64,000 nucleotides of DNA, from contig NZ_AP024233.1 in the NCBI RefSeq assembly GCF_025998535.1, positions 1,773,219-1,837,218 of the forward strand. The letters run 5' to 3'. Below the pieces are notes generated by a model. That model was not told the origin of the DNA. It did no database searches and worked only from the letters and a program-made list of their open reading frames with translations. The first letter of the stretch is position 1. The number at the start of each line of letters is the position of its first letter. Below, piece by piece: positions 6,222 to 52,960 of this stretch. The stretch comes from Desulfolithobacter dissulfuricans. Its GTDB lineage: Bacteria > Desulfobacterota > Desulfobulbia > Desulfobulbales > Desulfobulbaceae. The position numbers and the translations under genes were made by a program.

Positions 6222-6351
6222 GATAACCTCCTGTGGAAAAACAAAAAACAAGATGATCCGCGGAATTGGCGGACCCCGTTGTGTTTTAATGCACCACAGA
6301 CTACCACATGCCCACACTAAAAACGATAACTATTACCAGAAACAGTAGGAA

Positions 6352-7631
6352 TTATCCGTCATCCAGCAGACGGAGATAGAGAAACCAGAGAGTGCCGGGC
6401 AGGAGAAAGAGCATGGCCAGAACCGCGACAATGGTCCTGGGATCGTAACCCCAGTCAAGCCCCTTGCCGGTGATCCAGGTCGAACCACTGAGGACCAGGG
6501 TGAGGAGGCCCATCTCGGCGGCAAAGACCCGCCCCGGAAACGGTCCGGCACAACCCGGTGCAGGAGAGTGGTGGAAAAGACCCACTGGATCGAGCCACCC
6601 ACATGGCCAAAGAAGACACACAGGGCACCGATCCACAACACCGGTGCCCGGGAAAAAGACAAGTAGGCCAGGGACGAGATGAAAAAGGCCGCCCCGATTG
6701 CCCGGCGCATGTTCTGGTCTCCCTCGCCAAAGAGGCGCCAGGCAAGGATCGGCCCCACCGCCGCCCCGAGGCCGCGCATGGAGTAGAGAACTCCGGAGCC
6801 GGCACCCTGCCCGTTCTGGACAAAGACCTGTTCGCCAAACACGGTCAACATGACCAGGATCCCACCGGACAGGGCCCATCCCGACTTGACAAGCAGCAGG
6901 GCCGCCACCCGGCGGTGGCTGACCACGTAGCCGATCCCCTCAACCAGGTCCTCCAGGCCGAGAAGCCGGCCCAGGGAGAGCGGTCCCACCTTTTTCTTCT
7001 TTTCCTGACGGATGGTCACTGTGGAGAGCAGAGCCGCGGAAACCAGGAAGGTAAGTGCGTCGACGATGATGGCCGTCTTCCAGCCAAACAGGGCTGAAAC
7101 AAAACCGCCCAGCCCGGCACCCAGGGCCAGCATGATGGACCAGGAAGCCCCGGAAAGACCGTTGGCCACAGCCAGTTCTTCCTGGCGGCAGAGGTTGGGC
7201 ACCGTGGCCTGTCGGGCCGGACTGGCAAAGGTCCAGATGGATTCCTGTACAAAGGCCAGGAGATAGATAATCCACACCTGATCCGCACCCCGGACCAGAA
7301 GATAGACAGGGACCACCGCAGCCCGGGCCAGATCGCAGCTGATAAGGATAAAGCGGCGGCTGAACCGGTCGGCCACCACACCGGCCACGGGCCCGAGCAG
7401 GGTGGTTGGCAGAAACTTGGCGATCAGAAACCAGCTGACCGCAGAGCCGGAACCGGTGAGCTGGTTGAGGAGAACAAAGATACCGATGTAGTTGAACCAG
7501 TCACCGATCTGGCTGATCACCCCGGCCAGCCAGAACCGCCGGAAGCCGGGATTTTGACGCAGAAGAAAGAGGTAGGATCGGAAATGACCGGCTTTCAGAT
7601 CTCCGGTATCGGGCTCAGCAGAACGACCCAT
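6352..7631 (-). CDS. MFS transporter (frameshifted near the C-terminus)
   Basis: Inner-membrane major facilitator protein with many hydrophobic helices. The GVVADRFSRR loop between helices 2 and 3 is the MFS signature, and the sequence resembles MFS permeases of the enterobactin-exporter (EntS-like) group; the substrate is unknown. The frame that starts at 7631 loses homology after VVPDRFRG (about 6535-6545). The conserved tail (GRVFAAEMGLLTLVLSGSTW onward) continues in another frame to a stop at 6352. One extra G in the GGGG run would rejoin the frames and give the usual PDRFRGRVF motif. The start is the ATG at 7631, preceded by GGTGAG; a GTG two codons upstream is possible. It may be intact in the cell. 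Confidence 0.75.
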
Positions 7632-7706
7632 GGGCACTCACCGCTTTTTTGTCCTTTCGTGAATGGTGCTCTTCGTCTTTTCTGAAATGGTCCTGGGACA
7701 GAGAAA

Positions 7707-7786
7707 ATCGAGTAGGGTGAGGCAAGGTAATTAAGCTTGCCTCATCCCTCTCACAGAACCGTACGTACGGGCCTCGTATACGGCTC
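7707..7786 (-). ncRNA. Group II intron domains V and VI
   Basis: On the minus strand, 7786-7755 reads GAGCCGTATACGAGGCCCGT and continues to ACGGTTCT. It has the AGC/GTTC-type ends and hairpin layout of catalytic domain V. A second hairpin follows (GAGGCAAG...CTTGCCTC), fitting domain VI with the branch-point A. They lie just past the stop of the intron ORF, as expected. Confidence 0.75.
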
Positions 7787-7801
7787 CTGTTTATTTTTCC
7801 T

Positions 7802-9070
7802 TCATACTGAAACAGAAATTCCGGTCTGTACAGATGCGAGGTCAAAGAGCCCCATTTCCCCATGCAGGCAGCTGTTGGGAAGGGCATAATGGCTCAGTGG
7901 ACTTGCTGCATTGGCCCAGGAGTTCATCTTGATACTTTTGAACTCTCCTCTATAGCCCAGCTGTCTCAGTCTGCGGTGTAGCCTGCACGGCTTTTTCCAC
8001 AGCTTCAACTGAACAGCACGCAGCCGTCTTCTGATCCACCTCATCAGCCGAGAAAACTCACCCTTGCAGTTCGCTATCCGAAAGTAGTTGGCAAAACCCC
8101 TCAGCAACCGGTTGAGGTCGGCTATCACCTTCTCAAGGTTCACCGGGGAGTTACGCCGGGTCATCGCCTTGACCTTTGCCTTGAAGGCCCTCACCTTGCC
8201 TCGCTGTATTCGGGTCATCACGGAGTGGATACAAACTCCAAGAAATTTAATCCCTTTGAGGCTGTGGCTTATATGGGTCTTTTCCTGGTTGACGGTCAAC
8301 AGCAGTTCTTCTTCAAGATAACGACTGGCCTGGTTCAGTGCATTTTCGGCTGCGCTCTTTGACTGGCACAGGATCAGGATGTCGTCCGCATAGCGGACGA
8401 TGCGGTGGCCACGATTCTTCATAAACTGATCGAAGGAATCAAGGTATACGTTGGCAATCAACGGGCTGATAACTCCGCCCTGCGGACTGCCGACCTCGCT
8501 GGCCTGCCAACCATCTCCTGTCAGAACACCGCTTTTCAAAAACTTCTCCAGCAGACCAAGAATACTTCCATCGCTGACCCGGCGACGGAACGAGGCAAGG
8601 ATCAGGTCATGGTTCAACGTGTCGAAGCATTTCGACAGATCCATGTCCACTACCCATTTCCGCTCGTACGTCCGGATGAACATCGTGGCTTTGCTGATTG
8701 CCTGGTGACAACTCCGACCAGGACGGTAGCCGTAGCTCGACGGATGGAAATCGCGGTCAAATATTGGTTGAAGTATATCCAGCAGGGCCTGCTGTACCAC
8801 ACGGTCACGGACTGCAGGTATGCCGAGTAGCCGTTTCCCGCCGTTCGGCTTCGGGATCTCCACCCGTCGCACGGCCAGCGGCTGGTAGCTCTTGTCCTGC
8901 AGTTCCGTCAGGAGATGATCGATATTGGTCGCAAGTGATCCGGCAAAATCATCGATGGACTGGCCGTCTATACCGGCAGCTCCTTTCGAGGATTTCACCT
9001 TGTAGAATGCCTTGACCAGGTTCTCCCGGCTCAGCATTCGATCATATAGGCTGTACCAGACGTCAACCAT
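7802..9070 (-). CDS. ltrA: Group II intron reverse transcriptase/maturase
   Basis: Multifunctional intron-encoded protein of 422 residues that aids intron splicing and copies intron RNA into DNA. Reverse-transcriptase blocks are clear: IPKPNGGKRLLGIPAVRDRV, GYRPGRSCHQAI, VVDMDLSKCFDTLNH, GSPQGGVISPLIANVYLD and the catalytic RYADDILILC. A maturase (X/GIIM) domain follows (LNRLLRGFANYF, LRRLGY-like). There is no C-terminal HNH endonuclease, so mobility would use nicks or replication-fork primers. The ORF lies in intron domain IV. It appears intact. Confidence 0.94.
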   Translation of the reverse strand: MVDVWYSLYDRMLSRENLVKAFYKVKSSKGAAGIDGQSIDDFAGSLATNIDHLLTELQDKSYQPLAVRRVEIPKPNGGKRLLGIPAVRDRVVQQALLDILQPIFDRDFHPSSYGYRPGRSCHQAISKATMFIRTYERKWVVDMDLSKCFDTLNHDLILASFRRRVSDGSILGLLEKFLKSGVLTGDGWQASEVGSPQGGVISPLIANVYLDSFDQFMKNRGHRIVRYADDILILCQSKSAAENALNQASRYLEEELLLTVNQEKTHISHSLKGIKFLGVCIHSVMTRIQRGKVRAFKAKVKAMTRRNSPVNLEKVIADLNRLLRGFANYFRIANCKGEFSRLMRWIRRRLRAVQLKLWKKPCRLHRRLRQLGYRGEFKSIKMNSWANAASPLSHYALPNSCLHGEMGLFDLASVQTGISVSV

Positions 9071-9798
9071 GCTCCTGTCCTGCGTTTCCCTTCCTCTATT
9101 TCCACGTGGAGACTTCGGTTCTTCAATGGGCGCGACCGCTTTCTATCCTCATGGGCAATATACGATCAACACTCCCATCTACTCCGATGAACGGCCAAAA
9201 TCGGCAGAGGACCTGTCACGGCATACCGCCGATAGCGTGCCCCGTCCCGTCGGACGGCTTGTGTTCAGTCTGCCAGGTGTCCATAGATTCCGGAAAACCT
9301 TCAAATAAACTTCATCCCTTCGCAACAGATATGGCTTTTGGCTCATAACTGCCCCCAACGAACCAGGCCGTTGGGTCATCCCGGTTTTATCCTCCACACT
9401 GTTACCAGGCTTCACAGGCCGGAATTTCATCACTACTACGGAATCATCTGCCACCTCACACCGCTTCGATCCGCCTTGGATTTCTCCTTGTGCTTCTCTT
9501 TTTCCGCTTAATGCGGAAACAGTGCAAGGCTTCCCCGGTTAAGGCGAACTCCCTGTGAGCGACCACATCCTCAATCACGTATCAGGACTGACCAGGTATC
9601 GGGCTTCGCGCTATTTAGGACGCTTACCCTCCTGATACGCCGAATCAGGTTCGCTTGCGCTATGTGCCGCTCACTTCCTATCGCTTCCTTCAGACCCTGC
9701 CGTTACCAGCAACGCCCTTACGATTCGGATTGTCTTCCCCCTGGTCAGGGTGACGCCTGCTTAACACAGGCTGGGTTTGCCCGCCATGCCGGGCAAAC

Positions 9799-9830: not shown

Positions 9831-9935
9831 TCGTCCCTTTTGGTAAGCCTTACCAAAGTTTACCAGCAGAAAAACTCAACAATTAAAACCTTTGAGGCCA
9901 CAAATCGTTGTGGCCTCAAGGTGATGTGTCGTAAA

Positions 9936-9985
9936 TGGTCGGGAAGAGAGGATTCGAACCTCCGACCCCAGCGTCCCGAACGCTG
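9936..9985 (-). other. 3' half of tRNA-Pro(CGG): attachment-site scar of an integrative element
   Basis: On the minus strand, 9985-9936 contains a complete anticodon arm (CAGCG TTCGGGA CGCTG, anticodon CGG), a five-base variable loop, a perfect T arm (GGAGG TTCGAAT CCTCT), the acceptor 3' strand CTTCCCG, the discriminator base and CCA. Upstream sequence (AT-rich, from 9986) contains no D arm or 5' acceptor strand, so this is half a tRNA. Tyrosine integrases typically recombine between the anticodon loop and the 3' end. The element restores the tRNA at its other end and leaves such a fragment at this end. The orientation predicts the intact tRNA beyond the right edge of the window. Confidence 0.85.
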
Positions 9986-10049
9986 TAAAATTTCTATGTA
10001 TAAGGGAAGTTACCGCACTTGTACGCAAAAATAGACGGAAAAAAGTTTT

Positions 10050-18890: not shown

Positions 18891-19682
18891 TCACAAACTA
18901 CAAACCAAACATCCTTGATCGTCAGGTTCCCCTTCTTCTAATAAGATCTCCTGCCAGCTTCTACCATCCTCATCTTTTCTTCGTTTGGTGGCTAGGTCAA
19001 CAATTTCTTTCCTACGCTCTAAAAGCTGACTAAGGCTCATTCCTTCAATCCAAGAATATCCTTCTCCTGTATTAGGATTAAATTTTTCCAGTTCCATTGC
19101 CTTGTTAAACAAATCAGGATGGTTATCATAGAGACCAAGCCACTCTTCCTGACGCTGAAAAAAACAGAAATAGCATCCGGATCGACTCCTCCACTTATAA
19201 TATTCTGGTACGCCTATCGTTTCATCGAGAATCCGGAATACATCCTTACGAGTAATCTCATCATGAATGAAGGGAAAGACGGGGTGGATATTTGGCTTGG
19301 TGGAAATATATCCTTCCCTATGTTCATCGGCCCTAATAGCTACATAACTCATAACTTCATCAGTACCTACGAACTTCTCAAAGGGCTCAAGCTTCATTTT
19401 GACTGTACACCAGCGCTGCTTAGGAGAAGGTAGCATACCTCCTACCATGAAAAGATGGTGCTCGAAAGGAGCCTCACTGCCTATACGATCTATCTTTTTG
19501 CCAAGATATGCCTCAAGTCGGTCTATAAAATCGTAGGTCTCGGGAAGTTCACAGCCAGTATCCGAGAAATAATACTCCATCTCGGGTACTCGACCCTGCT
19601 GCTTGAGATAGATAGCTAAGGCAGCACTATCCTTTCCGCCAGAGATACCGCAGACATGCCGGACTGTTTTTTCTTTACTCAT
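18891..19682 (-). CDS. sspD: PAPS reductase-like ATP pyrophosphatase (SspD/DndC-like)
   Basis: Protein of 263 residues. The PP-loop SGGKDSAA (residues 14-21) binds ATP. Cysteines in RWCTVKMKLEP, the CYFC pair and the terminal CLVC pair could hold an Fe-S cluster. DndC and SspD of this family activate DNA for replacement of a non-bridging oxygen by sulfur. The ATG at 19682 is chosen because it overlaps the preceding small gene as ATGAGTAA; an in-frame TTG lies four codons upstream. Context (DUF4007 and ATPase genes) favours SspD over DndC. No cysteine desulfurase (SspA/DndA) is in the window, so a chromosomal IscS would have to supply sulfur. Confidence 0.8.
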   Translation of the reverse strand: MSKEKTVRHVCGISGGKDSAALAIYLKQQGRVPEMEYYFSDTGCELPETYDFIDRLEAYLGKKIDRIGSEAPFEHHLFMVGGMLPSPKQRWCTVKMKLEPFEKFVGTDEVMSYVAIRADEHREGYISTKPNIHPVFPFIHDEITRKDVFRILDETIGVPEYYKWRSRSGCYFCFFQRQEEWLGLYDNHPDLFNKAMELEKFNPNTGEGYSWIEGMSLSQLLERRKEIVDLATKRRKDEDGRSWQEILLEEGEPDDQGCLVCSL

Positions 19683-19971
19683 TGATTGCCTCAATGTCTG
19701 ACTTGAAATCCTTTTTCTTTGACTCTATTTTCTTATCTAGAAATTCATCAACAAGGTCTGCAAGTAAGGCTAGACGAGACGTTTCGTTGTCTAAGCTTTC
19801 TAAAAGACGCTGAAACTTAATTTTGTTATTCTGAATGTATTTCTTAGTGGAATCATCAATCCAAACAATTTCTTCATGCTCTGTTTTGCCATGCCGCATG
19901 GAACGTAGGCGAATCACTTCAAAGCCATCACTAAACCTGGCATTTGCTTTCATATACTGATCCTGCAACAC
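19675..19971 (-). CDS. Small protein between sspC-like and sspD-like genes
   Basis: Frame of 98 codons, mostly charged and helical (QRLLESLDNETSRLALLADL, then a lysine-rich tail). It starts at a GTG (19971), or at an ATG six codons later. The open frame extends upstream without an ATG and overlaps the end of the ATPase gene, so the true start may be earlier. The stop overlaps the sspD ATG, which indicates coupled translation. I recognise no family. It may be a small structural partner of the modification complex. Confidence 0.6.
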   Translation of the reverse strand: MLQDQYMKANARFSDGFEVIRLRSMRHGKTEHEEIVWIDDSTKKYIQNNKIKFQRLLESLDNETSRLALLADLVDEFLDKKIESKKKDFKSDIEAINE

Positions 19972-20012
19972 ACGAAGATCAATGAGGCGGCGAGAGAGTT
20001 CTTCAAGCTTTT

Positions 20013-23000
20013 TTACAGCCCCATCGCGGTCAACATCACGCCACTTATCTGAAGCGCGGCCCCGAGAAAGAGCAGTAGCCTGCTAAACCAAAGCTCATCA
20101 CTACCCTTATCGTCTGCCAAATGCTCGATAAAAGGCCGTAAACCTTTTACATCTACCGTGTATTGGCTCAAATCCTCATAGCGAGCGCAGGCCTTCTGCC
20201 GCAGGGTCTTTAACTCCATGCCCTTCTTTATATCTGGGAAGAGAGCTTGGGCCATGATATCCTGGAAGTCGGCGATCATCTTGCCGTATGCATCGCGGAG
20301 TTCCCTAATAACCTCGACTAACGCTGCAGCAAAACCTTCTATTTTTTTGCCGTCTGACTCGTCAGGATCAATGGCTGAATATCCGCAAGCCATTGGCAGT
20401 CTAACAAAAAGAAGATCCATGGGTGATTTGGCTAACTCAAAGGCTTTTCTTGTCTTCCGGCTCGCATCTGAAAGACGGTTGGTCTGTTTTGTATACTCAG
20501 GCAATTTTGCCATAAACTGAGCAAGTGGCTTGGCAATAGCAAGAAGTGAGACCTTTTGCGCTGCATTTTCTCCATAAAGTACCTTGATATATTGCTGAAA
20601 GAGTGAAGCGCGAATGCCGTGCATCCTAATGCGTTGGACCGTAAAATAATCCGGCCGCTTCATGAAGCGTTCAATATGCTGGTCACTGATGTATGGCGTA
20701 TAGACCTTGTTCTCATATAGGGCTAGCTCTTCTTGATTGCAAAGAAAGACACTGAGATAAAACAGGGGCAAAACCCCAGCTTTAACACCATAAGGCGGTG
20801 CCTGCAAAACCTCATTGAGTTCAGCAAAGGAGCGAGGTGTGTCTTTGGTGCTTTCCAAGAAAGCATCTATTTTCTGCCAGACAGGAAAAAAATTATACGG
20901 ATTATCTTCTGCCGGAGGCACGAGTTGCCACTTTCCCTCGCTTACCTCCTGATGCAGGCCTGTAGCATGCAGAAAGGCCCGATAGATACCTTTTTCTGCA
21001 GGGAATTTTTTAATGCCAAGATCCGGTTTGTCAGCATGGTGGACCATGGCCATAACCAATTTGTTGCGAGCTGCTGAGGCTTGAGCTGATGGTTTATCTC
21101 TATTGATAAGCTCATTATAAATCCGCGGCGACTGATCGTAAATTTTATCTAAGATTGAAGAGAGTTCTTGTTGAAAATCTCGTTTATTGGCAATAGTAAT
21201 TTCTTCAGCATGCCAAAACCACTGAGCATTTTCTGGATATTCCACAAGGCTATGGAGTAATTCATCTTCAAGGCGCCGTGCCGCCGCCAGCCTATCTTTG
21301 AACTCACGCTGAGCAACAGGATCTGCCTGAAGGTCGGGACAATTCTGCTCAACCCGATGTAAGGCTAGCACCTCTGCAACCGCCTCACGAAGTTGGGTGC
21401 CATTAGGACAGAGTGCGACTAGATCCAATCTTTCGAAATAAGGCACTACTTCTTGTCGGGCCATTTCTAGATCGTCAACAGATTCCACTAGGCAGAAGAT
21501 AATACGCTGCTGGCCTGCCTGCTTTGGCTCTTTCTGATAATTCGTAAGATCAACAAAAACAGGGATAAAATAGCGCAAGGCTCCTGTCTTGATAGTATGG
21601 CGCCTAGCAACAATGGGCAGCAGCGGCTTACGACTGTTGATTGCCGCCGGCAGATCAAATCTGCCTAGCTGGCCAAGTTCGTCCTGCACTGCTGCATCTA
21701 GGTCAAAATCGCTGCCCTGCCATACCCGGTACTCATTGCTGAACTTCCGAAACTGGAGGACACAGCGTTCAATAAGGGCATTGGCAGCCATGGTTGCCGC
21801 TTTCTTGCTAGTTGTGCAGAGGCTGACAATATTTTTTGATGCCTTGAATCCCCCTGGGCACCAATAATATTTAGCAGACCTATGGTCTTGAGCAGCTTGA
21901 AATGCATGGACGGAGCATCTCCAAGACGCTCAATGGCAGTGACCACCTCTGCCCAGCGCCTATGGGTTGTAGGATCAGTAAGGACAGCAGGCTGATTTAG
22001 GATGAAGTAATCAAAAATTTCCCAAGGCATGACCCAATCGCCAACTTTCTGTAGACGGGTGAGGCTGTCGCGTAGCCCATGCTGTTCCTTACTGCCTAAA
22101 TAACTAAAAAGGGTGCGTTCATTCTGGGCCATCTTCTGGCACAGAATAGGAAGGATCAAAACAGTTACAGGGTGTAGCGGATAGCACTGACTGAAAAGAT
22201 GAGCCGCGGTTTCCTGATCAACGCTACCAGGCAAAGCCCTTTCTTTAGCCAACACCGACGCCATTTTTTTGCATTTTTCAGCAACTGTCTTCTGGTCACT
22301 TGTTGGCAGCTTATTAACAAAGGCCCTGCTGATAATACGGAGAGTTTGCTCCGTGGATTCCAGGAATGGAATATTCTCAAAACGCCCTTGAATCTTGCTC
22401 CACTCATTTCGAAGGCCCTCGCCAAAACCACGGGCATATTGTTCAAATCCTTGATGCATGAGAGTAAAGACATAGATATTGGCCTTGCGACCAATTGCAG
22501 CTGTCTCTGCTAAGGCTTGGAGCAGATAGATATCATTCGCCCCATAATGGCGAGCCTCATATTCGAGAAACTTACCGAGCTCATCAAAGATGATCAGCAA
22601 GCCTTTGCCCTTTTTGGCTTCCACGGCATCCCTGACTTCTTCAACAAGGGTCAATATCTCGTGGGTGGTAATATCTTTTTGGGAGGCAGCATCTGTTAAT
22701 TTGTCAATAATTACCGGCGGACGACCAGGTAAACTTTGCCAAAATCTAATAGCTGCGTCTCGAAGACTTTCCACAAAACGATGACCGAGAGGCTCTGGAG
22801 TACCGGTAAGGAGTACGGACAAATAACCCTTAGAGCTTGAAGTATGTCGGTATATATCAACACTTACATCCTCATCTGCATCGCAACAAATTTTTAATGC
22901 AGAAATTGTATGTGCGTTGGCAGGATTGCCAAAGAGATGCGCAAGATAAACGGCAAAAGAAGATTTGCCTGAACCATAAGGGCCAATTAAAGCCCATGAC

Positions 23001-23167
23001 CGAGGCATATCCTCTTCATTCAACGTTCTGGCAATACGTTGCAGAGTGATCAACGCCCGGCTCGTAGGGATATAAGCCTTTGTAATTGCCGACGAATCAA
23101 TATCTCGTTCCAGGTTTATAGAACGGGTATAGACAGTATCGATTTCAATATATTTTTGGACACTCAT
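20013..23167 (-). CDS. sspC: P-loop ATPase of Ssp-type phosphorothioation system, frameshifted in a G run
   Basis: Two overlapping frames (23167-21698 and 21791-20013) together make one ~1050-residue ATPase. The first has Walker A GPYGSGKSS (residues 62-70) and a Walker B-like LLIIFDELGKF. At 21850-21854 the minus strand reads CAGGGGGATTC. With six Gs the frames join as AQGGFKASKNIVSL and continue into MAANALIERCVLQF of the second frame. The protein would power the modification complex, as SspC does. Its ATG overlaps the sspB stop (ATGA). Either the sequence lacks a G or the gene is truly broken; the rest is well preserved, which favours error or recent mutation. Confidence 0.72.
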
Positions 23168-24090
23168 GCGGCTTTATCATGTTGTTGCAGGGCATTATAA
23201 TGTTTCTCGAGATATCTGATTGGCTCAACTTCTTGAAGGCGATAAAGTTGATGGATGCCTGCGGTTTCATCAAGCTTAAAAATGCCGGGGAGATAATTGA
23301 TGAGCTGCTCAACCTTAGCAAGGAGCGCATTTTCGGTCAGGCGAAAAAGAATACCAGGGGCAATATTACCATTACCACCATACATTAAATCTTCGATGGG
23401 TATTTCTGATATGCTACGTTTTTGAAAAAGATCAGCTATGGCAAAACCAAGGACGCCAAGAGGCAGGCTATCACGGCGTTCAAGACGGGATTGATAACTC
23501 TTGGTTGCAGGTGAGTAGGTAATTAATCGCAGAAGTGAAAGCGGCGAATCAAGGGCCTCTTCAACCGGCGTTTTCATATTGCTCTTTGACTGTACGTAGG
23601 TTCGCAAGAGAACAGCACAATCGTTTTTAACCGAGAGCACCGAAAACTTAGCCTTGATGTTCTCTTTAGCAAAATCCACTAAGGCATTAGCTACCTCTTG
23701 GCTGGTAAACTCTGGCTTATGAAAAAGATTAAAAAACCAATACCAAGACGTAGCGTGCTCAGGGTTTGTTGCAAGCAACCAATGGAGTAGCCAAATTGTG
23801 GCCTCGTCTTCTAAATAGGGATCCTTTCCAGCTTTTTCAGAAAAAAGAAACTCTCCAAGAGGTGTTGTCTCTTTCTTGTCAGGACCAATTACAATAAGCT
23901 GGGCAGCCCGAAGCCAATGACGAATGGAGTTGACCATGTTTTTTCCAACACCTAAACGAACAACAGCGTCATCTGCTGAAAAAATACCTTTATTATGCTC
24001 AAATTCCTGGAAACCTTTGGTGAGCCAGCCGAAACGTAACGCAAAGGATTCATGACGGCCAAAGGCCACCTGATTTGGTTTAAATTGCAT
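23164..24090 (-). CDS. sspB: DUF4007 protein (SspB-like DNA nickase)
   Basis: Protein of 308 residues starting MQFKPNQVAFGRHESFALRF, the N-terminal pattern of DUF4007 (Phe-His/Arg-Glu, then LRFGWLTKG). A winged-helix-like region follows (FSADDAVVRLGVGKNMVNSI). DUF4007 is the domain of SspB, the nicking component of the SspABCD phosphorothioation system. It is first of the minus-strand operon: its stop overlaps the ATPase start. Downstream order sspB-sspC-small-sspD matches known Ssp loci apart from the small gene. The assignment rests on this order and the visible N-terminal motif. Confidence 0.8.
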   Translation of the reverse strand: MQFKPNQVAFGRHESFALRFGWLTKGFQEFEHNKGIFSADDAVVRLGVGKNMVNSIRHWLRAAQLIVIGPDKKETTPLGEFLFSEKAGKDPYLEDEATIWLLHWLLATNPEHATSWYWFFNLFHKPEFTSQEVANALVDFAKENIKAKFSVLSVKNDCAVLLRTYVQSKSNMKTPVEEALDSPLSLLRLITYSPATKSYQSRLERRDSLPLGVLGFAIADLFQKRSISEIPIEDLMYGGNGNIAPGILFRLTENALLAKVEQLINYLPGIFKLDETAGIHQLYRLQEVEPIRYLEKHYNALQQHDKAA

Positions 24091-27014: not shown

Positions 27015-27740
27015 TCACACGTATTCTTTCCTTTTCTCCACCACCACGCCGACGATCCGGAACTCCCTGCCGGTCATGTCCATGATCGGATAACGGTAGT
27101 TCAGTGGCTTCAGGTAAATACAGCCACCATCTTTCACAAACTGCTTCAGCGTGGTTTCTCCGTTGCCGTCCGGCCCATTATCCACCCTGGCAACCACAAA
27201 GCTGCCGGAGACCGGCTCCCTGGCCGGGTCCACAACGATAATATCCCCTTCCCGAAACTCCGGCTCCATCAAGTCCCCTTCCACACGGAGGGCAAAAGCA
27301 TCGGGACTGACACGACTCAACGTCGGCACCCACTCTTCATCATCATCCGAATGAGAAGGGTCCGTTCTTCCGGCCCACTCCCCGGCCCGCGTCCATGATA
27401 TCAGCGGAACGCTGGTCCGGAAATCCTGCCCTGAAGGAAGATTGGAGTCCGCTTTTGCCAGCTGCTCGCGCAGAGTGGCAAGCCTCTGCTCTATCTCATC
27501 ATCAGAACGTCCGGCGAGGATGAACCGGCCAAGGGCCAGCATCTCCTCGTATGTGCAACCAAGGGCATCGGATATGCGTTCTTTCAGGTTTTGGCCTGCA
27601 CTTTTTCTTTTCCCGAGAATATCGCTTAAGTGGTTAGGAGAGATACCCACACGGACAGCCAACTTACTTTTCGCACCTCGGCCCTTGGCTTCCAGCCTAT
27701 TTCGCAGAGCTGCCACAAAACATTCATCTGATGAGTTCAT
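27015..27740 (-). CDS. CI/LexA-type repressor with inactive S24 peptidase site
   Basis: Protein of 241 residues. It has an N-terminal helix-turn-helix (KLAVRVGISPNHLSDILGK, residues about 26-44), a linker, and a C-terminal LexA-like S24 domain. The family catalytic serine sits in GDSMEP; here the codon is TTG and the motif reads RVEGDLMEPEFREGDIIVVD. The catalytic lysine region is kept (TTLKQF). The protein should therefore bind and dimerise but not self-cleave. It is divergent from a Cro-like gene across an operator region with TTAAGC half-sites, so it probably controls the element's phage-like switch. Removal would need an antirepressor; two candidate antirepressor-domain genes lie nearby. 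Confidence 0.88.
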   Translation of the reverse strand: MNSSDECFVAALRNRLEAKGRGAKSKLAVRVGISPNHLSDILGKRKSAGQNLKERISDALGCTYEEMLALGRFILAGRSDDEIEQRLATLREQLAKADSNLPSGQDFRTSVPLISWTRAGEWAGRTDPSHSDDDEEWVPTLSRVSPDAFALRVEGDLMEPEFREGDIIVVDPAREPVSGSFVVARVDNGPDGNGETTLKQFVKDGGCIYLKPLNYRYPIMDMTGREFRIVGVVVEKRKEYV

Positions 27741-29334: not shown

Positions 29335-29570
29335 TGAAACAGCGGCTCCAGACCACAGTTCCCCTCTTCCGGTGGGTCCTGACGGCCATGGGCGTAACAG
29401 GAGCGTTTCTTAATGCCTTGGGCGATGGAACCTGCTTTGTGATCTGGATTCTGGCCAATATCGGCTGGATAACCGTCAACCTCCAGCGGCGGTCAGGGCC
29501 GGAGGTTGCTCTGTTCACGGTCTATTTAGGTACGGCTGTTCTTGGCCTTGTTACCTGGGGGATGCAGTGA
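29331..29570 (+). CDS. Small inner-membrane protein
   Basis: Protein of 79 residues read from the ATG at 29331 (a second ATG follows at once). It has two or three hydrophobic segments (FRWVLTAMGVTGAFLNAL, CFVIWILANIGWITVNL, VALFTVYLGTAVLGLVTW) joined by short polar turns, so it is an integral membrane protein. Its stop overlaps the start of the replication-initiator gene by four bases. I recognise no family; a membrane-associated partner for the replication protein is speculation. Confidence 0.6.
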   Translation: MMKQRLQTTVPLFRWVLTAMGVTGAFLNALGDGTCFVIWILANIGWITVNLQRRSGPEVALFTVYLGTAVLGLVTWGMQ

Positions 29571-30895
29571 GCAAACCGGCTGAGAAGACACGGGAAGTAA
29601 CGTCGTTCGAATACGACGGCAAACGGATAAGAGTCATCCTGGACAAACAGGGCCGACTCTGGTGGGTGGCGAAGGAAGTCTGCGAGGTGCTTGGGTTACG
29701 GAGCCCGTCCGTGATTGTACAGGTACTGGATGATGATGAACGGGTTAAAAAAAATTTAGGCCGCCAAGGCATGACCTGGCTCGTCAACGAGTCCGGGCTT
29801 CACGCCTTGATTTTCCGTAGTAACGAGCCCAAGGCCAAATCGTTTCGCAAGTGGGTAACATTGGAGGTGCTGCCCACGATATACGAGACCGGCAGTTACC
29901 GGATCAAAGAAAATCAGAATCCCTTCATCCTGTCGCCCATCGACCAAGAATCCAGCAAGTCTTTTCGATTGGCCGGACCTTCCAGCCACGGGAAATGGGA
30001 GACAACACCATTAGCCAACCACCCTGTCCAAAAGGAAAAGGTAGAGGCTACCCTGGAACCTGTTAATGACGGCCCCAAACCGCTGCCGGACTCACTTCCG
30101 TCCACTGAACCAGTGAACTTGCCGCCATGCTCATCAACCAATCATGTTTCACCAAACATATGCCTGCAATCAGCATTGTTTGGGATCGTAAAAAGAGGAC
30201 ATCGCAGAACAATGAACAACGAGCTGATAGCATCATTCACAGGCGCAACGGTTAAATTTTCGGGTCAACAATTTGACCAGGGAGACATGGATGTCTTCCT
30301 ACAGGCTGTTCACTTATCTGCCAAGCAGAAAAATCAACGGCCTGATGGATTGGTTCAGTTCACTGTCCGCAGTTTTCTTAAAGCGATAGGAAGGAAGCCA
30401 GGAAAATCAGGTCAGGAATGGCTGCTCAATTCGATTCGTCGATTAACGACCTCATTAGTCGAGATTGAAATACGCTCACGTAACCAAGTTGCCGCTCCTG
30501 ATAGGTACGGAGGATCACTTATTGATGAATTTTATTTCAGAGGTGCTACCCAGACCTATTACTTGAAAATCAATCCCAAATTAGCGGCACTGTTCGATGC
30601 TGGCTGGAGCGCTCTGGACTGGCAGCAACGGCTATGTCTTCGGACCGATCTTGCCCGGTGGCTGCACGGATTCTACGCCAGCCAACAGGCGCCCTACCCC
30701 TGCAAAGTGTCGACCATCCAAAGGCTGTGTGGCTCCGAAGAACGTAGATTCAGCAACTTTCGCATTAAGCTCAGAAAAGCTCTTGAGCAGCTCGTTGAGT
30801 CTGGTGCCATCAGGTCTTGGGAGATAGACAGGGAGGATAAGGTTCATGTGCAACTGCCCAAGAGACTCCCGGAGAGCAATCAACAGCATGGCTGA
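29567..30895 (+). CDS. BRO-N domain fused to a TrfA-type plasmid replication initiator
   Basis: Protein of 442 residues. Residues about 12-115 match the BRO-N domain of phage antirepressors (GRLWWVAKEVCEVLGLRSPS, NESGLHALIFRSNEPKAKSF, then RKWVTLEVLPTIYETGSYRI). A linker follows. From about residue 200 the protein resembles TrfA, the initiator of broad-host-range IncP plasmids (SALFGIVKRGHRRTMNNELI, FLKAIGRKPGKSGQEWLLNS, then LRTDLARWLHGFYASQQAPY). TrfA binds iterons as a monomer and opens the origin. Nine iterons lie 240 bases downstream. The start GTG at 29567 overlaps the upstream stop. The fusion suggests that replication is tied to the regulatory switch. Confidence 0.82.
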   Translation: MSKPAEKTREVTSFEYDGKRIRVILDKQGRLWWVAKEVCEVLGLRSPSVIVQVLDDDERVKKNLGRQGMTWLVNESGLHALIFRSNEPKAKSFRKWVTLEVLPTIYETGSYRIKENQNPFILSPIDQESSKSFRLAGPSSHGKWETTPLANHPVQKEKVEATLEPVNDGPKPLPDSLPSTEPVNLPPCSSTNHVSPNICLQSALFGIVKRGHRRTMNNELIASFTGATVKFSGQQFDQGDMDVFLQAVHLSAKQKNQRPDGLVQFTVRSFLKAIGRKPGKSGQEWLLNSIRRLTTSLVEIEIRSRNQVAAPDRYGGSLIDEFYFRGATQTYYLKINPKLAALFDAGWSALDWQQRLCLRTDLARWLHGFYASQQAPYPCKVSTIQRLCGSEERRFSNFRIKLRKALEQLVESGAIRSWEIDREDKVHVQLPKRLPESNQQHG

Positions 30896-33929: not shown

Positions 33930-34523
33930 ATGCGGATAATCAGGACAACAATCCTGGTGGGAGCTTTGCTGATGCCAACCTTGACCGGGGCACAGACATT
34001 TGAAGTCAGGCAGGAAAAACATACATTCCGGATGGAGGTGACACAGGATGTCACCCGAGAGACTTTTGTGATCGGCCTGTTTCCGGAAACCACTCAGGAA
34101 TCGAAAACTCCTGCCCGGACAGTCACGAGCAAAAAGCCTGTTGCCGTGCGGATAAACGTGCTTCCCACCCATGCCCGGAAAGCAAAAGCCATGAAATGCC
34201 GATTACCGGTTGTCCGGTTCAAGATCAACGACGCCACTCTTCAGGCAGGCCAGGAGGATGCAATCCTCTCCGGCCTGAAGAAATGCGGCATTACACATGA
34301 CACAGGACTGGTAATCGTTGGCCACACATGCGATCTCGGCCCAGCCGAATTTAACCGGAACCTGTCCCTGCGCCGGGCGGCGGTTGTAGCCGATTTCCTC
34401 AAGAAGCACGGCTATGCCATAGCCATGGTCCAGGGAAAAGGCTCGGAAAATCCCGTAACACAGGACCCGGCCAGGCGATACCTGAACCGCCGGGTTGAAA
34501 TCAAAGTACAGGAGAAGAACTGA
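33930..34523 (+). CDS. OmpA-family protein of the transfer region
   Basis: Protein of 197 residues with a signal peptide (RTTILVGALLMPTLTGAQT). The C-terminal OmpA-like peptidoglycan-binding domain has LVIVGHTCDLGPAEFNRNLS, then LRRAAVVADFLKKHG, and an ending NRRVEIKV. It would sit in the periplasm or outer membrane and anchor the mating apparatus to peptidoglycan. It is first gene of the transfer unit behind leader copy A, and overlaps dsbC by one base. OmpA-like genes are not part of the F plasmid core, so this is an accessory of this element group. Confidence 0.8.
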   Translation: MRIIRTTILVGALLMPTLTGAQTFEVRQEKHTFRMEVTQDVTRETFVIGLFPETTQESKTPARTVTSKKPVAVRINVLPTHARKAKAMKCRLPVVRFKINDATLQAGQEDAILSGLKKCGITHDTGLVIVGHTCDLGPAEFNRNLSLRRAAVVADFLKKHGYAIAMVQGKGSENPVTQDPARRYLNRRVEIKVQEKN

Positions 34524-35248
34524 TGCTGAAACGTATTGCGATCTCAGTGGCACTGCTTGCCGCAGCAACAACCACTTATGCTGGCAGTTGTGGAGATGAT
34601 GAAGCGGCTGACCTGGCAACCAGCGATGTTGCGGCTACGCTCAGGGAGACCTTTCCGAACTATCAGTTCCAGGAAATCAATCCCGCTCCGGTCTCCGGTC
34701 TTTACGAGGTGGTATCGAAGAACAATATCATCTATTTCGCCCCGGAAACGGGCCATCTCATTTTCGGGGAAATATGGGACAAGAAGGGCCAGAATCTTAC
34801 CGCAAAAAGCAGGGACCGGCAGACAGCCAAGATGATTGAGAACCTGCCCCTGGACAAAGCGGTCAAGATTGGCAACGGCAAGCACAAGGTCATCGAGATC
34901 ACCGATCCAGATTGTCCTTTCTGTCGCAAGGGCAGCAAGTTCTTCGCCAACCGCAGCGATGTGACCCGCTATGTCTTTTTCTTTCCACTGGCCATGCACC
35001 CCGATGCAGAGCCTAAAGCCATGTACATCCTCGGGGCTGACGACCAGGTGGAAGCATACGAAAGAGTCATGCAGGGCGAGTTGGACGGCAAGCCTGTTCC
35101 GGCACCGACCAAGGCAGCCCGTGACCTGCTGGAGGAACACAAGCGGATAGCAATTCAACTCGGCGTCAACGGTACACCGAGATACTGGATCAACGGCGTC
35201 TCTGTCTCCGGAGCAAACATTCAGAAGATCGAGTCGCTGCTTCAATAA
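34523..35248 (+). CDS. dsbC: DsbC/DsbG-type thiol-disulfide isomerase
   Basis: Periplasmic disulfide isomerase of 241 residues. It has a signal peptide (ISVALLAAATTTYAGS), an N-terminal dimerisation domain (YEVVSKNNIIYFAPETGHLI), and a thioredoxin fold with the active site DCPFCRKG near residue 133. The cis-Pro loop is GTPRYWINGV. Such isomerases are frequent in F-type transfer regions, because TraN, TraU, TraH and others carry many cysteines. The two very Cys-rich TraN-like proteins here make the need obvious. It is co-transcribed with the OmpA-like and pilin genes. Confidence 0.92.
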   Translation: MLKRIAISVALLAAATTTYAGSCGDDEAADLATSDVAATLRETFPNYQFQEINPAPVSGLYEVVSKNNIIYFAPETGHLIFGEIWDKKGQNLTAKSRDRQTAKMIENLPLDKAVKIGNGKHKVIEITDPDCPFCRKGSKFFANRSDVTRYVFFFPLAMHPDAEPKAMYILGADDQVEAYERVMQGELDGKPVPAPTKAARDLLEEHKRIAIQLGVNGTPRYWINGVSVSGANIQKIESLLQ

Positions 35249-35276
35249 TCTCCCAATCAAATTCAAGGAGGTAAAA

Positions 35277-35635
35277 ATGAGTAACCGGAACAATCAGATC
35301 AAAAACCTTGCAACCCCCGCAGCGGAAAAATGCCGTCAGGCAAAGATGGCCACGGCACTGGCTGTCTGCACCGCCGCCTGCCTGCTGGCAGCCGGAAACG
35401 CCCTGGCCTTCACCGCCCGGCGTCCGGCACCTTTGCCTATGACATCTACGACGTGGGGGTCAACCAGATCCTCAAAGGCCCCATCGGTTTTGTCGGCGGA
35501 GTCGGTGCGATGGTTGCCGCAGGCGTCATGGCGATCCGGCAGATGCTGTTGCCGGCAGCGGCCACCGTTCTCGGCGGAGCCTTCCTGCTGAAGGCCGACA
35601 GCGTTGTATCTACCCTGGGAGCCATCATCAGTTAA
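35277..35635 (+). CDS. traA: TraA-like conjugative pilin, frameshifted
   Basis: The pilin precursor is read in two frames. The leader from ATG 35277 (MSNRNNQIKNLATP..., hydrophobic CTAACLLAAGNALAFT, cleavage at ALA) loses frame at 35418-35420. The mature part continues in another frame (GTFAYDIYDVGVNQILKGPI, then two hydrophobic segments ending STLGAIIS) to the stop at 35635. One more G in the CCCGG stretch would join them. A long leader and two membrane spans fit F-type pilin of about 120 residues. AAGGAGG lies before the start. It sits between dsbC and traL, as expected. Confidence 0.75.
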
Positions 35636-35644
35636 GGACAACTA

Positions 35645-35923
35645 ATGTCTGAGGGTACACGAAGAGCATTTCCGCAGTATTTGTCCAACCCGATCCAGGT
35701 TCTCTGGTTCGAGAGCGATGAGCTGTCAATTATCGTGCTGTTCTTCGTGCTGGCTATGATTTACGGGGGACTGGCCTGGATACTGTTCTTCGCCGGTCCC
35801 TACCTGTACAGCCGAAGCAAGAAGACAAAGCCACGGGGATACCTGTTTCATCTGCTCTACATGATCGGGTTGAACAAAATGAAACACTACCCGGAATATT
35901 TTGACAAAGATTTTAACGAGTGA
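35645..35923 (+). CDS. traL: TraL, type IV secretion pilus assembly protein
   Basis: Small inner-membrane protein of 92 residues (VirB3-related). It starts with the conserved FPQYLSNPIQVLWFESDE and has one or two hydrophobic segments (LSIIVLFFVLAMIYGGLAWI). It takes part in F-type pilus assembly at the inner membrane. It follows traA by nine bases, and its stop overlaps the traE GTG start by four bases. Confidence 0.93.
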   Translation: MSEGTRRAFPQYLSNPIQVLWFESDELSIIVLFFVLAMIYGGLAWILFFAGPYLYSRSKKTKPRGYLFHLLYMIGLNKMKHYPEYFDKDFNE

Positions 35924-36477
35924 AAACAAATATTTTTCTGCAAAAAACCAGCAACCTGTTTGTCGAGAACAGGGTTTTGAAGTTCACGGTGCTTGTTCTT
36001 GCGGCAGCCGTTGCCGTCAACTCGTTCATGGTTTCCCGAGCGGTCAAGTACCAGCGGGTAATCCTCATCCCACCCAAAATGACCGGCACAATCGAGTTTG
36101 TCGAAGGCTTGCCGTCCGAGACGTACATCAAGGACATCACCCGCAAGATTATCAACCTGGGGGCCACCTATTCACCGGCGACTGCCAGGGCACAGTTCGA
36201 CGAGCTGCTGGCCTATTATGCGCCGGAGGAATACCCCAAGGCATCGTCAACCTGGTACGCCCTGGCAAGCAGGGTGGAGGAAGCGCTGGTCAGCTCCGTT
36301 TTCTATCCTCAGAAAATCGTCCTGAATGATGGCGAACTGGAGGTGATCGGCAACTACAAGCAGTTTGCCAACAACCAGATCATCGAGTCCGGTCCCAGAG
36401 CGTATGTTCTCCGGTACCGGATCGAGGACGGCAGGTTCTATCTCCTGTCGTTTCTGGAAAAAGGAGGAACGCCGTGA
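35920..36477 (+). CDS. traE: TraE, type IV secretion inner-membrane protein
   Basis: VirB8-like assembly protein of 185 residues with an N-terminal membrane anchor (KFTVLVLAAAVAVNSFMVSR) and a periplasmic domain containing ILIPPKMTGTIEFVEG and SEYI-type YIKDITRKIINL. It is needed for pilus extension in F-type systems. GTG start at 35920 overlapping traL, and a stop overlapping traK, show tight translational coupling. Confidence 0.92.
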   Translation: MKTNIFLQKTSNLFVENRVLKFTVLVLAAAVAVNSFMVSRAVKYQRVILIPPKMTGTIEFVEGLPSETYIKDITRKIINLGATYSPATARAQFDELLAYYAPEEYPKASSTWYALASRVEEALVSSVFYPQKIVLNDGELEVIGNYKQFANNQIIESGPRAYVLRYRIEDGRFYLLSFLEKGGTP

Positions 36478-37238
36478 ACAAGCCCAGATACGGCCTGATC
36501 GGAGCAATAATCGCTTCCATGGCCATGCCAGCCATAAGTGTTGCCAACACGCCTTTCAAGGGCAGCGTCACTGTTCCGCCGGAAATAACGACAGCGGTTG
36601 AGCTGTCCAGCACGGATATAAACAGGATCGTTTGTCCCGGCACCATGAATGACCTGATTTTTTCTCAGGAAAAAGGGCTGGACGGACATTTTTCCGGCAA
36701 CAATGCCTTTGTGAAATTCAAAATCACCAAGAAAGGTGAAGAGCTTATCTACAGCACCACTCCCAGCGAGCTGTTTGTGGTGTGCAACAACGTCGTATAT
36801 ACGTTGATCGCCACCCCCAAGGAAATTCCGGCTGTCACCGTTCGCCTGGCACCGGGCATTGGCGACAAGCTGAAAAAAAACATTACCCATTTTCAAAATC
36901 TACCTCTTGAGAAACGGGCATTGCAACTGATCCGTGAGGCTTACTCAGGAGAATACCCGTCCGGGTATCAGATGGTACCGGCGGACGTGAAAATTGATCT
37001 GTCCTCTGATTTCTCAACCACGCTGTACAGGGTCGTGAATGTTGAAGGGGTTGGGCTGAGGCTCAAGGAGTTTCAAGTTAAACCTCTTGCAGAAAAGCGG
37101 CTGACTCTGGATGAAAAAATGTTTCTGACCCCGAACATCAGTGAAACCCTGCTGGCGGTTGCGATTGAACGGCACAACATCAAACCCGGTGAGACAACCA
37201 GGGTGTTCGTTGTAGAGCAAAAGGAGAAAAAGCAGTGA
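36474..37238 (+). CDS. traK: TraK, secretin-like outer-membrane complex protein
   Basis: VirB9-like periplasmic protein of 254 residues with a signal peptide (GLIGAIIASMAMPAISVANT). Beta-rich segments follow (ITTAVELSSTDINRIVCPG, where F-type TraK has its conserved N-R-I pattern). With TraV and TraB it builds the outer-membrane core of the F-type channel. GTG start at 36474 overlaps traE, and the stop overlaps traB. Confidence 0.92.
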   Translation: MNKPRYGLIGAIIASMAMPAISVANTPFKGSVTVPPEITTAVELSSTDINRIVCPGTMNDLIFSQEKGLDGHFSGNNAFVKFKITKKGEELIYSTTPSELFVVCNNVVYTLIATPKEIPAVTVRLAPGIGDKLKKNITHFQNLPLEKRALQLIREAYSGEYPSGYQMVPADVKIDLSSDFSTTLYRVVNVEGVGLRLKEFQVKPLAEKRLTLDEKMFLTPNISETLLAVAIERHNIKPGETTRVFVVEQKEKKQ

Positions 37239-38431
37239 GCATCAAGGACAGATTTGACAGCCTTTCCCCTGGTCACAAGAAGGTGGTGGTCTGGTCGATG
37301 ATCGGGGCTGTATTCCTGGGCGTGACGGTTGTCGGCTACAAGGCGTCCCGCTCCGGGGACGATGCAGCGTCATCGGCTTCTGTGGTGAAAAAGACCCGGG
37401 AAATTTCCCTGGAGCCGGATTTGATCCAGAAAACCATGCTCCGGGAGCAGCGGCGGGAAATGGACGCCCTGAAAAAGGAGGTGGAACAGCTCAGAAAGGA
37501 GCGGGAGAATTGGCAAGCCACTACAACTCCCCCTGCTGAAACTGCCGAGGAAACCAGGCTTCCGGAAGTACCAACCGCCGACCAGGTGGTGAACATGAAC
37601 GGTTCCGACAAACTGGAGCCTCTGCCGCTGCCCGGAAGCAGGTTTCCCATGCCGCCCGGCAATACCACTCCCCCGCCCCCGCCCCCGGAAGAAGTGCAGG
37701 TCATCGGGGCCATCGGTGTGCTGACGAACCAGGAAGCTGCTGCCGACGTCCAGGTGGCCGGGACGGACAATCAAAAAAAAAAGAAACGGACAGTCTATCT
37801 GCCTCCTTCCTTTATGGAGGCGAGGCTGCTGACAGGTTTCGACGCTTCTACAGCCGGTAACGGCAAGAACAACCCCGAACCGATCCTTCTCAGGATTCAG
37901 ACTCCCGCAGTTCTGCCAAACGACATCAAGGCCAATCTGCGCGGCTGCTTTGTTATTGCCGAGGCGGTCGGACGCCTGAACAAGGAACGGGCCGACGTAA
38001 GGCTGGTGTCCCTGTCCTGTATCAGCAACGAGGGCAATGCGGTCATCGACACCACCATCAAGGGATTTGTCACTGATTCGGACAGCAAAGTTGGACTTTC
38101 CGGCAGGGTGGTCTCCAAGATGGGCGCGGCCACGGCCAGGGCTGTGGTTGCCGGCCTGTTTGACGGAGCAGGGAGAGCGTTGCAGTCAGGTACCCAAACC
38201 CAGGCTGTTTCGGCTCTCGGGGTGACATCCGTGGTTGATACGGATCAGCTTGTCAACGCATCCATTGGCGGCGGGTTGTCCGAGGGGGCCAATACTCTGA
38301 GTGACCTGTATCTCGACATGGCGAAACAGGCGACCCCAGTGATCGAGGTTGGAGCCTCCAAGAAAATCACCGTCATTATTTCAGAGGGCAAAGAGCTTGA
38401 AATTAAAGAGTTTAAGAATGATGAACTGTAA
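37235..38431 (+). CDS. traB: TraB, VirB10-like core channel protein
   Basis: Protein of 398 residues spanning the envelope. It has an N-terminal membrane helix (VVVWSMIGAVFLGVTVVGYK), a coiled coil (REQRREMDALKKEVEQLRKE), a proline-rich linker (PPGNTTPPPPPPEE) and a C-terminal VirB10/TrbI beta barrel (GCFVIAEAVGRLNKERADVR, GFVTDSDSKVGLSGRVV). It transmits energy from inner-membrane ATPases to the outer pore. It overlaps traK upstream and traV downstream. The fold and length are typical. Confidence 0.94.
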   Translation: MSIKDRFDSLSPGHKKVVVWSMIGAVFLGVTVVGYKASRSGDDAASSASVVKKTREISLEPDLIQKTMLREQRREMDALKKEVEQLRKERENWQATTTPPAETAEETRLPEVPTADQVVNMNGSDKLEPLPLPGSRFPMPPGNTTPPPPPPEEVQVIGAIGVLTNQEAAADVQVAGTDNQKKKKRTVYLPPSFMEARLLTGFDASTAGNGKNNPEPILLRIQTPAVLPNDIKANLRGCFVIAEAVGRLNKERADVRLVSLSCISNEGNAVIDTTIKGFVTDSDSKVGLSGRVVSKMGAATARAVVAGLFDGAGRALQSGTQTQAVSALGVTSVVDTDQLVNASIGGGLSEGANTLSDLYLDMAKQATPVIEVGASKKITVIISEGKELEIKEFKNDEL

Positions 38432-38837
38432 ACATCTCTGCAAGTATGGATTGGCGATTCTGGCCTCGGTCACGCTTACCGGGTGCGGTGCAGCGCTGAA
38501 TCCGTACCACGAGGACTTCAACTGCAAGGCCCCGGCCAGTGACGGGCGGTGCCTCGATACCCCGACAGCTTATGAAGAAGCTGTCAAGATCAACGATATG
38601 GTTCTGGTTGATAAATCGGACGCCAAAATTGATCCAGAACGGGAAGTACAGGCCAGCCGGTACGAAACTCTGGCGAAACTTCTGAAAAAACCACGCAAAC
38701 CGATCCTGGAGCCGCCCAAGGTGCTTCGAGTGCTCCTGCTTCCCTACAAGGGGGATGGCAATGAACTGTTCATGTCCCGTTACGTTTATGTAACCGTGGA
38801 AGAGGCACGCTGGGTACTGACTGATCGCCATGAATAG
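38418..38837 (+). CDS. traV: TraV, outer-membrane lipoprotein of the transfer channel
   Basis: Lipoprotein of 139 residues. The signal peptide with lipobox LTGCGAALNPYHEDFNC is highly typical of TraV: the lipid cysteine, then NPYHEDFNC. With TraK and TraB it makes the outer core complex. Either of two adjacent ATGs (38418, 38421) may be the start, both inside the end of traB. The stop overlaps the HD-GYP gene by 8 bases. Confidence 0.9.
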   Translation: MMNCKHLCKYGLAILASVTLTGCGAALNPYHEDFNCKAPASDGRCLDTPTAYEEAVKINDMVLVDKSDAKIDPEREVQASRYETLAKLLKKPRKPILEPPKVLRVLLLPYKGDGNELFMSRYVYVTVEEARWVLTDRHE

Positions 38838-50644: not shown

Positions 50645-51118
50645 ATGACAGCTCTGATAAAGAAATACCAGCCAAAAGACCTGCAACGCCTTCCTGCCGC
50701 GACTGAAAACAAGAAGTTTCTGGTGGACCTGACCTACACCCTGAACCGCAACATACCGGATGGGCAGGGAGGGATACTCTATCCCAAAGGATATTCCTTC
50801 AACCCCCTGGATTACGTCAACCTGTCCAGCATCCTGGTAGTCATTGACGGGTCCGACCGGCGGCAGGTGGAATGGTTCAAGGATTCTCCCTATGCCGATG
50901 ATTTCCGGTGCAGGCTCCTGTTGTCAGGTGGAGATTTTTACGACCTGATTATGGACCTGGGCCGGCCAGCCTTTTACTTATCAGCGGAAATTGCCGACAG
51001 GCTTAAACTTGCTGCGGTCCCGTCTGTTGTCGTGCAACAGGGCAACAAGATGCTGGTGCAGGAAATCCTGGTGCCAGACAAAGAGACGCAAAAGGAGAGC
51101 ACAGGTGAAGACAAATAG
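50645..51118 (+). pseudogene. traW: TraW, 3' fragment
   Basis: Frame of 157 codons with the conserved TraW body: FLVDLTYTLNRNIPDGQGGI, LYPKGYSFNPLDYV, LVVIDGSDRRQVEWFKDSPY and AFYLSAEIADRLKLAAVPSV. The preceding bases read LWDKKK, resembling VWDKQQ at the break in the 5' fragment, so little is lost besides the join. The ATG at 50645 may allow a truncated product without signal peptide, which would stay in the cytoplasm. The stop overlaps the traU start. Confidence 0.82.
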
Positions 51119-52160: not shown

Positions 52161-52960
52161 TGCGTCGTCTCTGCTTTGTGATTGCCATGGCTGTCATGGC
52201 CGGAACTGTTCATGCCGGTGATAGCTCACGAATCGGCGTGAAAGATATTTCAGGTGTCCTGAAGCAGGCTAAGGAAAAAGCCGAAACCTTGTCATTGCCT
52301 GAAAACCCGCAGACAGATGCAGCTCGGGAAGCTGCGGAGCGGGTTGTGCGTCAGTTTCGTTCACCAGAGTACCAGGCCCGGCTCCAACGCGAGCAGGAAC
52401 GGCTAAAACAGGAGGTATTCAAGGATTACCTGGCTGCCAGTGGAGACAAGCCGGACCGGAAGCAGGATTCCGGACAACCGGATGGCCAACTTTCGGCAAC
52501 AGAGAGGGTGTACCTGTTTTTTTCAAGTTCTGTCCCCATGGATACGCTCCACTCTTACATGGACCTGATCGAAAAGGCGCATGACCCGAATGTAATCATG
52601 GTGATGCGTGGGTTTGTCGGGGGCATGAAGAAGGCGAAGCCTACCCTGGAGTATCTCACCAGCCTGCTTAAAAAAGATCCTGACTGTGATTTCGGGAAGA
52701 AGAAATGTGAAGCCTATCGTGTCAACATCCAGATAAATCCCATGCTTTTCCGGAAATATGCCGTCAACAGGGTGCCGACGGTTATCTATGCTTTCGGCCT
52801 CTCACCGGAGAGTGGCCTTGGAAATGACACGGCAACGGGCCGGGCATACATCATCGAGGGAGATGCTGGGCTGGATTATCTTCTGGAGCGAATCAACCGT
52901 GAGGCAAAAAGAAAGTCCCTGGACAGCCTGGTCAGAGTCATGCGAAGTGGAAACCATTGA
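52160..52960 (+). CDS. trbC: TrbC, type-F pilin assembly protein
   Basis: Periplasmic protein of 266 residues with a signal peptide (FVIAMAVMAGTVHAGDSS). The thioredoxin-like TrbC_Ftype domain has VYLFFSSSVPMDTLHSYMDL and VMRGFVGGMKKAKPTLEYL, with VNIQINPMLFRKYAVNRVPT near the end. It is part of the pilus assembly set and interacts with TraW. A charged coiled stretch precedes the domain. Start ATG inside the traU stop. Confidence 0.93.
   Translation: MRRLCFVIAMAVMAGTVHAGDSSRIGVKDISGVLKQAKEKAETLSLPENPQTDAAREAAERVVRQFRSPEYQARLQREQERLKQEVFKDYLAASGDKPDRKQDSGQPDGQLSATERVYLFFSSSVPMDTLHSYMDLIEKAHDPNVIMVMRGFVGGMKKAKPTLEYLTSLLKKDPDCDFGKKKCEAYRVNIQINPMLFRKYAVNRVPTVIYAFGLSPESGLGNDTATGRAYIIEGDAGLDYLLERINREAKRKSLDSLVRVMRSGNH

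Follow-up and report, generated by a model that had tools for sequence, protein, structure and literature searches.

Why does one half of a tRNA-Pro(CGG) gene lie by itself in the window, the whole 64,000-nucleotide stretch analysed here (C1:1773219-1837218, C1 being a single contig of 3,596,428 bp), and what does it delimit? A sequence-only reading took positions 9936-9985, from the anticodon arm to CCA, for the left end of an ICE of more than 54 kb. The half tRNA proved real, with slightly wider ends: it covers 53 bp, from the 5' side of the anticodon stem to CCA and the following TT. Since ARAGORN finds no complete tRNA in the 64-kb window, the 5' half is absent at the scar, as that reading had it. 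It had also seen no second copy in the window; indeed, the 53 bp are present there only once, even with up to 3 mismatches allowed (0 in 100 shuffles). The tRNA terminator had been placed on the chromosome side, where 57 nt fold into a strong hairpin (-23.3 kcal/mol). In a relative, G007, the first ~21 bases past the tRNA 3' end of the scar have their counterpart downstream of an intact tRNA-Pro.

9934-9986, minus strand: displaced 3' part of tRNA-Pro(CGG), the distal attachment site (attR-type half), identical over 53 bp to the intact tRNA-Pro(CGG)
9889-9921, minus strand: original tRNA-Pro terminator hairpin, now on the chromosome side of the scar (fold z -6.2; flank matching downstream of tRNA-Pro in G007)

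An intact minus-strand tRNA-Pro matching the scar had been predicted to the right, next to an integrase gene beyond 64 kb, and both were found there. Genome-wide, exact copies of the 53 bp number two, the scar itself and C1:1900086-1900138, while the next-best match is a 34-bp piece (91%) inside a different tRNA-Pro. The second copy is part of the intact gene, and a tyrosine integrase gene starts 160 bp from the 3' end of that tRNA, on the element side.

C1:1900088-1900164 (window-equivalent 126870-126946), minus strand: intact tRNA-Pro(CGG), also an Rfam tRNA
C1:1898881-1899927 (window-equivalent 125663-126709), minus strand: tyrosine integrase of 348 residues (Pfam Phage_integrase)
9987-64000: body of the ICE within the window, continuing to C1:1900138 (window-equivalent 126920) and ending in the intact tRNA-Pro(CGG)

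The distance between the two copies is 116.9 kb (~117 kb); the element, read earlier as beginning at about 9986, starts at about 9987. Its GC content is 0.497, against 0.583 and 0.586 in the stretches of the two flanks that were read. No other 15-mer of the tRNA half, and hence no nested att copy, occurs in the 143.8-kb region.

The uninterrupted site is preserved in three of the 36 relatives searched (37 genomes including the host's own). In G004, G018 and G007, an HU gene, the whole tRNA-Pro(CGG) and an MFS gene are contiguous, with a gap between tRNA and MFS gene of ~230 bp in G004 and just under 1 kb in G018 and G007. The same MFS gene is the chromosomal neighbour of the scar.

6333-7637, minus strand: MFS transporter (Pfam MFS_1), directly downstream of tRNA-Pro(CGG) in G004, G018 and G007

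When the two flanks of the element are joined, they give a 102-bp alignment (94%) to the empty site of G007. The alignment extends ~21 bp past the tRNA end, where the host's own intact-tRNA side ceases to match. In the remaining relatives the MFS match is absent, or the MFS gene and the tRNA are on different contigs, or, in G027 (one contig), ~184 kb apart, so the HU-tRNA-MFS neighbourhood is not universal.

The locus thus has the marks of a tRNA-integrated island: an intact target tRNA and a displaced 3' fragment, an adjacent integrase inside, and an empty site in relatives. Positions 9934-9986 are almost certainly the distal end (attR type) of a 116.9-kb ICE inserted in the host's single tRNA-Pro(CGG) gene, an element that would be able to excise and transfer. 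The integrase would recombine attP of the circle with the anticodon-arm part of the tRNA-Pro(CGG) gene; at one end the tRNA would be made whole again by the 3' half that the element brings, and the 3' half first present in the host, together with its terminator, would end up 117 kb away. The scar in itself is a textbook, ordinary mark of tRNA integration. According to PMC4383910, Islander tRNA islands likewise have a regenerated tRNA at one end, a displaced 3' fragment at the other and an adjacent tyrosine integrase. They include anticodon-centred sites, just as the fragment here begins at the anticodon stem, and the element differs from them in nothing essential. IS elements and a group II intron close to the scar could be taken to mean that an older insertion unconnected with the element, or a duplication by chance, left the tRNA half behind, and that the element ends elsewhere. 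This is very improbable, since the two copies agree fully over 53 bp, the integrase is found beside the second one, GC shifts at both ends, and sister elements follow the same plan (see below).

That the inserted element is an ICE, rather than some other island, is indicated by its gene content. It encodes an almost full F-type transfer apparatus, and the coupling protein TraD lies beyond the window.

34523-38837, plus strand: DsbC, TraL, TraE, TraK, TraB and TraV
39405-41957, plus strand: TraC, VirB4-type ATPase (PF11130, 4.4e-78; 67% identical in G046 and G059)
43812-46490, plus strand: TraN (PF06986, 1.5e-20; NCBIfam TraN models)
50645-52960, plus strand: TraW, TraU and TrbC
54273-57871, plus strand: S26 peptidase, TraF and TraH
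59896-64000, plus strand, the ORF continuing to window-equivalent 64428: TraG (homologs in G046 and G059, and one annotated as TraG N-terminal-domain protein in Desulfosarcina BuS5)
L005:9854-11545: TraD, coupling protein
27015-27740, minus strand: S24-type repressor, backbone (Pfam Peptidase_S24; homologs in the corresponding position of G046 and G059)
29567-30895, plus strand: plasmid-type replication initiator with Bro-N, backbone (Pfam Bro-N, RPA, TrfA; conserved in G046 and G059)

An MPF_F T4SS is recognised by at least 5 F-type-specific genes (rule as given in an excerpt of PMC3158045), and the element has TraL, E, K, V, C, W, U, N and H plus TrbC. TraC and TraD provide the VirB4-type ATPase and the coupling protein that, with the MPF apparatus, are expected of an ICE. 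This apparatus would transfer the excised DNA. Further backbone genes encode SSB, RadC, a PD-(D/E)XK protein and HU, and a ParA-type ATPase is also encoded. With its tyrosine integrase, S24 repressor, SSB and PD-(D/E)XK genes the element might recall a prophage or phage-plasmid using tRNA-Pro, but among those of its proteins that were scanned with Pfam no capsid, tail or terminase family was detected, and the nearly complete F-type tra set makes this origin hardly conceivable.

Among known conjugative elements, the ICE resembles the SXT/R391 group (MPF_F) in its F-type tra genes including DsbC, the similarity of its TraD to the SXT type, its SSB and its exonuclease-like genes. However, its TraD scores far below the SXT_TraD cut-off (170 vs 366 bits) and no MobH gene lies upstream of traD. 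SXT inserts in prfC, whereas the present element sits in tRNA-Pro. Other known relatives are pSD of Geobacter anodireducens, pPRO1 of Pelobacter propionicus and unnamed1 of Desulfosarcina BuS5, whose TraC proteins are 44-47% identical to that of the element and in which a TraD-like coupling protein is also followed directly by an HD-domain protein; unlike the element, these are circular plasmids.

Two complete sister elements, each with its own displaced tRNA half, are collinear with the element described here.

G046:C1:315667-389963, ~74 kb: element in tRNA-Leu(GAG), integrase at 315833-316873, displaced 61-bp copy (98%) at 389903
G059:C23:224265-290330, ~66 kb: element in tRNA-Arg(CCT), 48-bp copy (85%) at 224265

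The three share a common plan (tRNA, int, traD region, tra region, repressor, tRNA half), and in all three the repeat begins in or at the anticodon stem. The possibility that both sisters retain a relaxase gene which the present element has lost was considered: genes that they have in common and that are absent here include those for an ArdC-type and an SNF2-type protein (both Pfam-scanned) and others, e.g. of 346, 188 and 327 aa. In G059 the two copies of the tRNA half differ in the T stem, as expected if the 3' half of the intact gene came from the element. The backbones of the G046 and G059 elements are 88% identical in DNA over 33.4 kb, and their TraC and TraD proteins 95% and 96% identical, yet their integrases are only 44% identical and their tRNA targets differ. 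This indicates that the integrase has been exchanged, and the pair is direct evidence of such exchange between closely related backbones.

The element is one of a family of Desulfobulbales ICEs whose members have moved from one kind of tRNA gene to another. When 16 aligned integrases were used to search the named genomes, they retrieved 78 distinct loci, mostly from Desulfobulbales as judged by the titles. Sixty-five of the 78 were examined, the remaining 13 being fragments or distant. At 55 of these 65, the integrase is preceded, at a distance of 125-431 bp, by a tRNA in the same orientation, and 11 anticodons are represented: Arg(CCT) 18 times, Leu(CAA) 9, Leu(GAG) 7, Leu(CAG) 6, Arg(TCG) 4, Pro(GGG) 4, Arg(TCT) 3, and Arg(ACG), Leu(TAA), Ala(GGC) and Arg(GCG) once each. 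The other 10 have no adjoining tRNA, some because the contig ends. These 55 tRNAs make up most of the 63 present in the 978,557 bases of the loci, and none of eight distant integrases tested has such a tRNA. tRNA-Pro(CGG) is not seen as a target among the 65 related loci. The family so delimited has at least 12 anticodon targets including tRNA-Pro(CGG).

The order int, HU, g103, g102, HD protein, TraD, g099 recurs in the loci. Within flanks of at most 10 kb, many contigs ending sooner, HU was counted in 33 of the 65 loci (in 4 of them the chromosomal HU, on the other side of the tRNA), the HD protein in 16 and TraD in 12. A quick integrase tree of 58 rows (five partial loci not entered, three short ones dropped) needs 15 changes of anticodon, where 11 is the least possible, and 5 changes of amino acid. 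In this tree the integrase of the element forms a long branch beside a group holding Pro(GGG) targets, with a support of 89 and not starred. The portions of the literature consulted on ICEs of this group, integrase swapping and HD-type relaxases hold no report of this ICE family.

The sequence-only reading of an ICE stands as to ends and integrase, but is not supported as to the relaxase, which had been expected beyond 64 kb: no member of four canonical families was found. The genome-wide search covered these four as PF07514, PF03432, PF08751 and PF03389. PF03432, PF08751 and PF03389 have no match in any of the three whole genomes G000, G046 and G059. PF07514 matches just stretches of 30-39 residues in 11 of 12 genomes, none inside the G000, G046 or G059 elements. 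The enzyme that starts transfer would most likely be the HD-domain protein beside TraD, the best relaxase candidate, as guessed from its position and conservation.

L005:11548-12969 (C1:1868548-1869972): HD-domain protein of 474 aa, backbone, directly behind TraD

All 15 homologs tested have the HD domain, and invariant in the 15 aligned proteins are H152, H183-D184, H201 and H231-H232, with an HDxGK motif. The signature of MOBH, as stated in a section of a FEMS review (PMC12857230), combines 3H and HD motifs. In MobH of four plasmids PASExHHH is indeed invariant (4/4), followed by H and HD motifs. The HD protein has the HD motif of this pair, HDxGK being invariant, but the 3H motif is absent from the 15 aligned proteins. 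PF07514 (TraI_2) matches none of the 15 at E 0.1, while the positive control, MobH of pRA1, gives 2.4e-88. A profile comparison with MobH is likewise weak (probability 17%). On these grounds the identification of the HD protein as a canonical MOBH relaxase was rejected. The gene position differs too, MobH being upstream of traD in the compared plasmids and the HD protein downstream of TraD here. The predicted fold, of low confidence (mean pLDDT 57), had no PDB match at E 0.001 and only weak ones of the HD-hydrolase type, and was left out of the evidence; a comparison of the sequence with solved structures returned nothing useful.

Homologs of the HD protein stand directly after the coupling protein in the four plasmids examined of seven matched (Geobacter, Pelobacter, Desulfosarcina, Nitrosophilus), all four typed as non-mobilizable by MOB-suite, as given in PLSDB. 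We propose tentatively, and with rather less than even confidence, that the HD protein acts as relaxase, or as the catalytic core of one, in a large F-type conjugative group of sulfate and metal reducers and Campylobacterota that is typed as relaxase-less. Lacking 3H, it would then represent a class separate from MOBH or only very remotely akin to it. If this is true, the tRNA-hopping ICEs demonstrate that some of the "MOBless" T4SS are genuine conjugation systems.

The lack of a recognised relaxase in the four families tested would also suit an integrated plasmid or a non-conjugative island, whose T4SS exports protein or is dead and which moves by its integrase or with the help of other elements. 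The plasmid-type replication initiator, the ParA-type ATPase and the existence of related plasmids point the same way. The 2011 survey, in the part of PMC3158045 on relaxase-less T4SS, lists artefact, unknown relaxases or protein secretion as explanations and favours secretion for many of them. We nevertheless consider this origin unlikely, because this combination of tra set and int end turns up again and again, in numerous species and at numerous tRNA sites, and because two members with 88% identical backbones have different integrases and sites, which fits repeated transfer of a unit. That the family is exactly delimited and hops between sites argues for conjugation here. The element is, in our view, an ICE of the usual tRNA-integrated kind that poses a testable question about its relaxase, and it is the family and the missing relaxase that merit the interest. 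With its precise ends, numerous sites and single conserved candidate gene, this ICE family makes the 2011 question, secretion versus unknown relaxases (in the same part of PMC3158045), open to testing.

The cargo of the ICE includes a defence block at 18891-24090, with Pfam matches to DUF4007 and PAPS_reduct.

18891-19694, minus strand: SspD (PADLOC)
20013-21791 and 21698-23167, minus strand: SspC, two overlapping ORFs (PADLOC)
23164-24090, minus strand: SspB (PADLOC)

The two SspC ORFs (20013-23167) match profile residues 1-442 and ~455-1023, which indicates a frameshift or a sequencing error. Other defence cargo consists of DruH and DruE of Druantia III and an AriAB (PARIS) fusion. The split of sspC and the group II intron behind traG suggest that this copy of the element may be partly decayed. 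That intron (L004:420-1940, window-equivalent 64420-65940, minus strand) either directly follows the repeat-rich 3' part of traG or interrupts it, and a further repeat-rich ORF continues past the intron.

Several smaller mobile elements are present. Three ISL3-type transposase ORFs (g013, g076, g113) have alike starts and the same length, one of them having been tested by Pfam. Directly beside the integrase, an IS200/IS605-like pair (L007:258-1793; C1:1897258-1898793) comprises, as judged by eye, a small Y1-type transposase and a TnpB-like protein. One group II intron with a reverse transcriptase occurs in two copies, at 7707-9712 of the window, just outside the element beside the scar, and at L005:3680-5589, inside it; their RT ORFs and ribozyme parts score alike.
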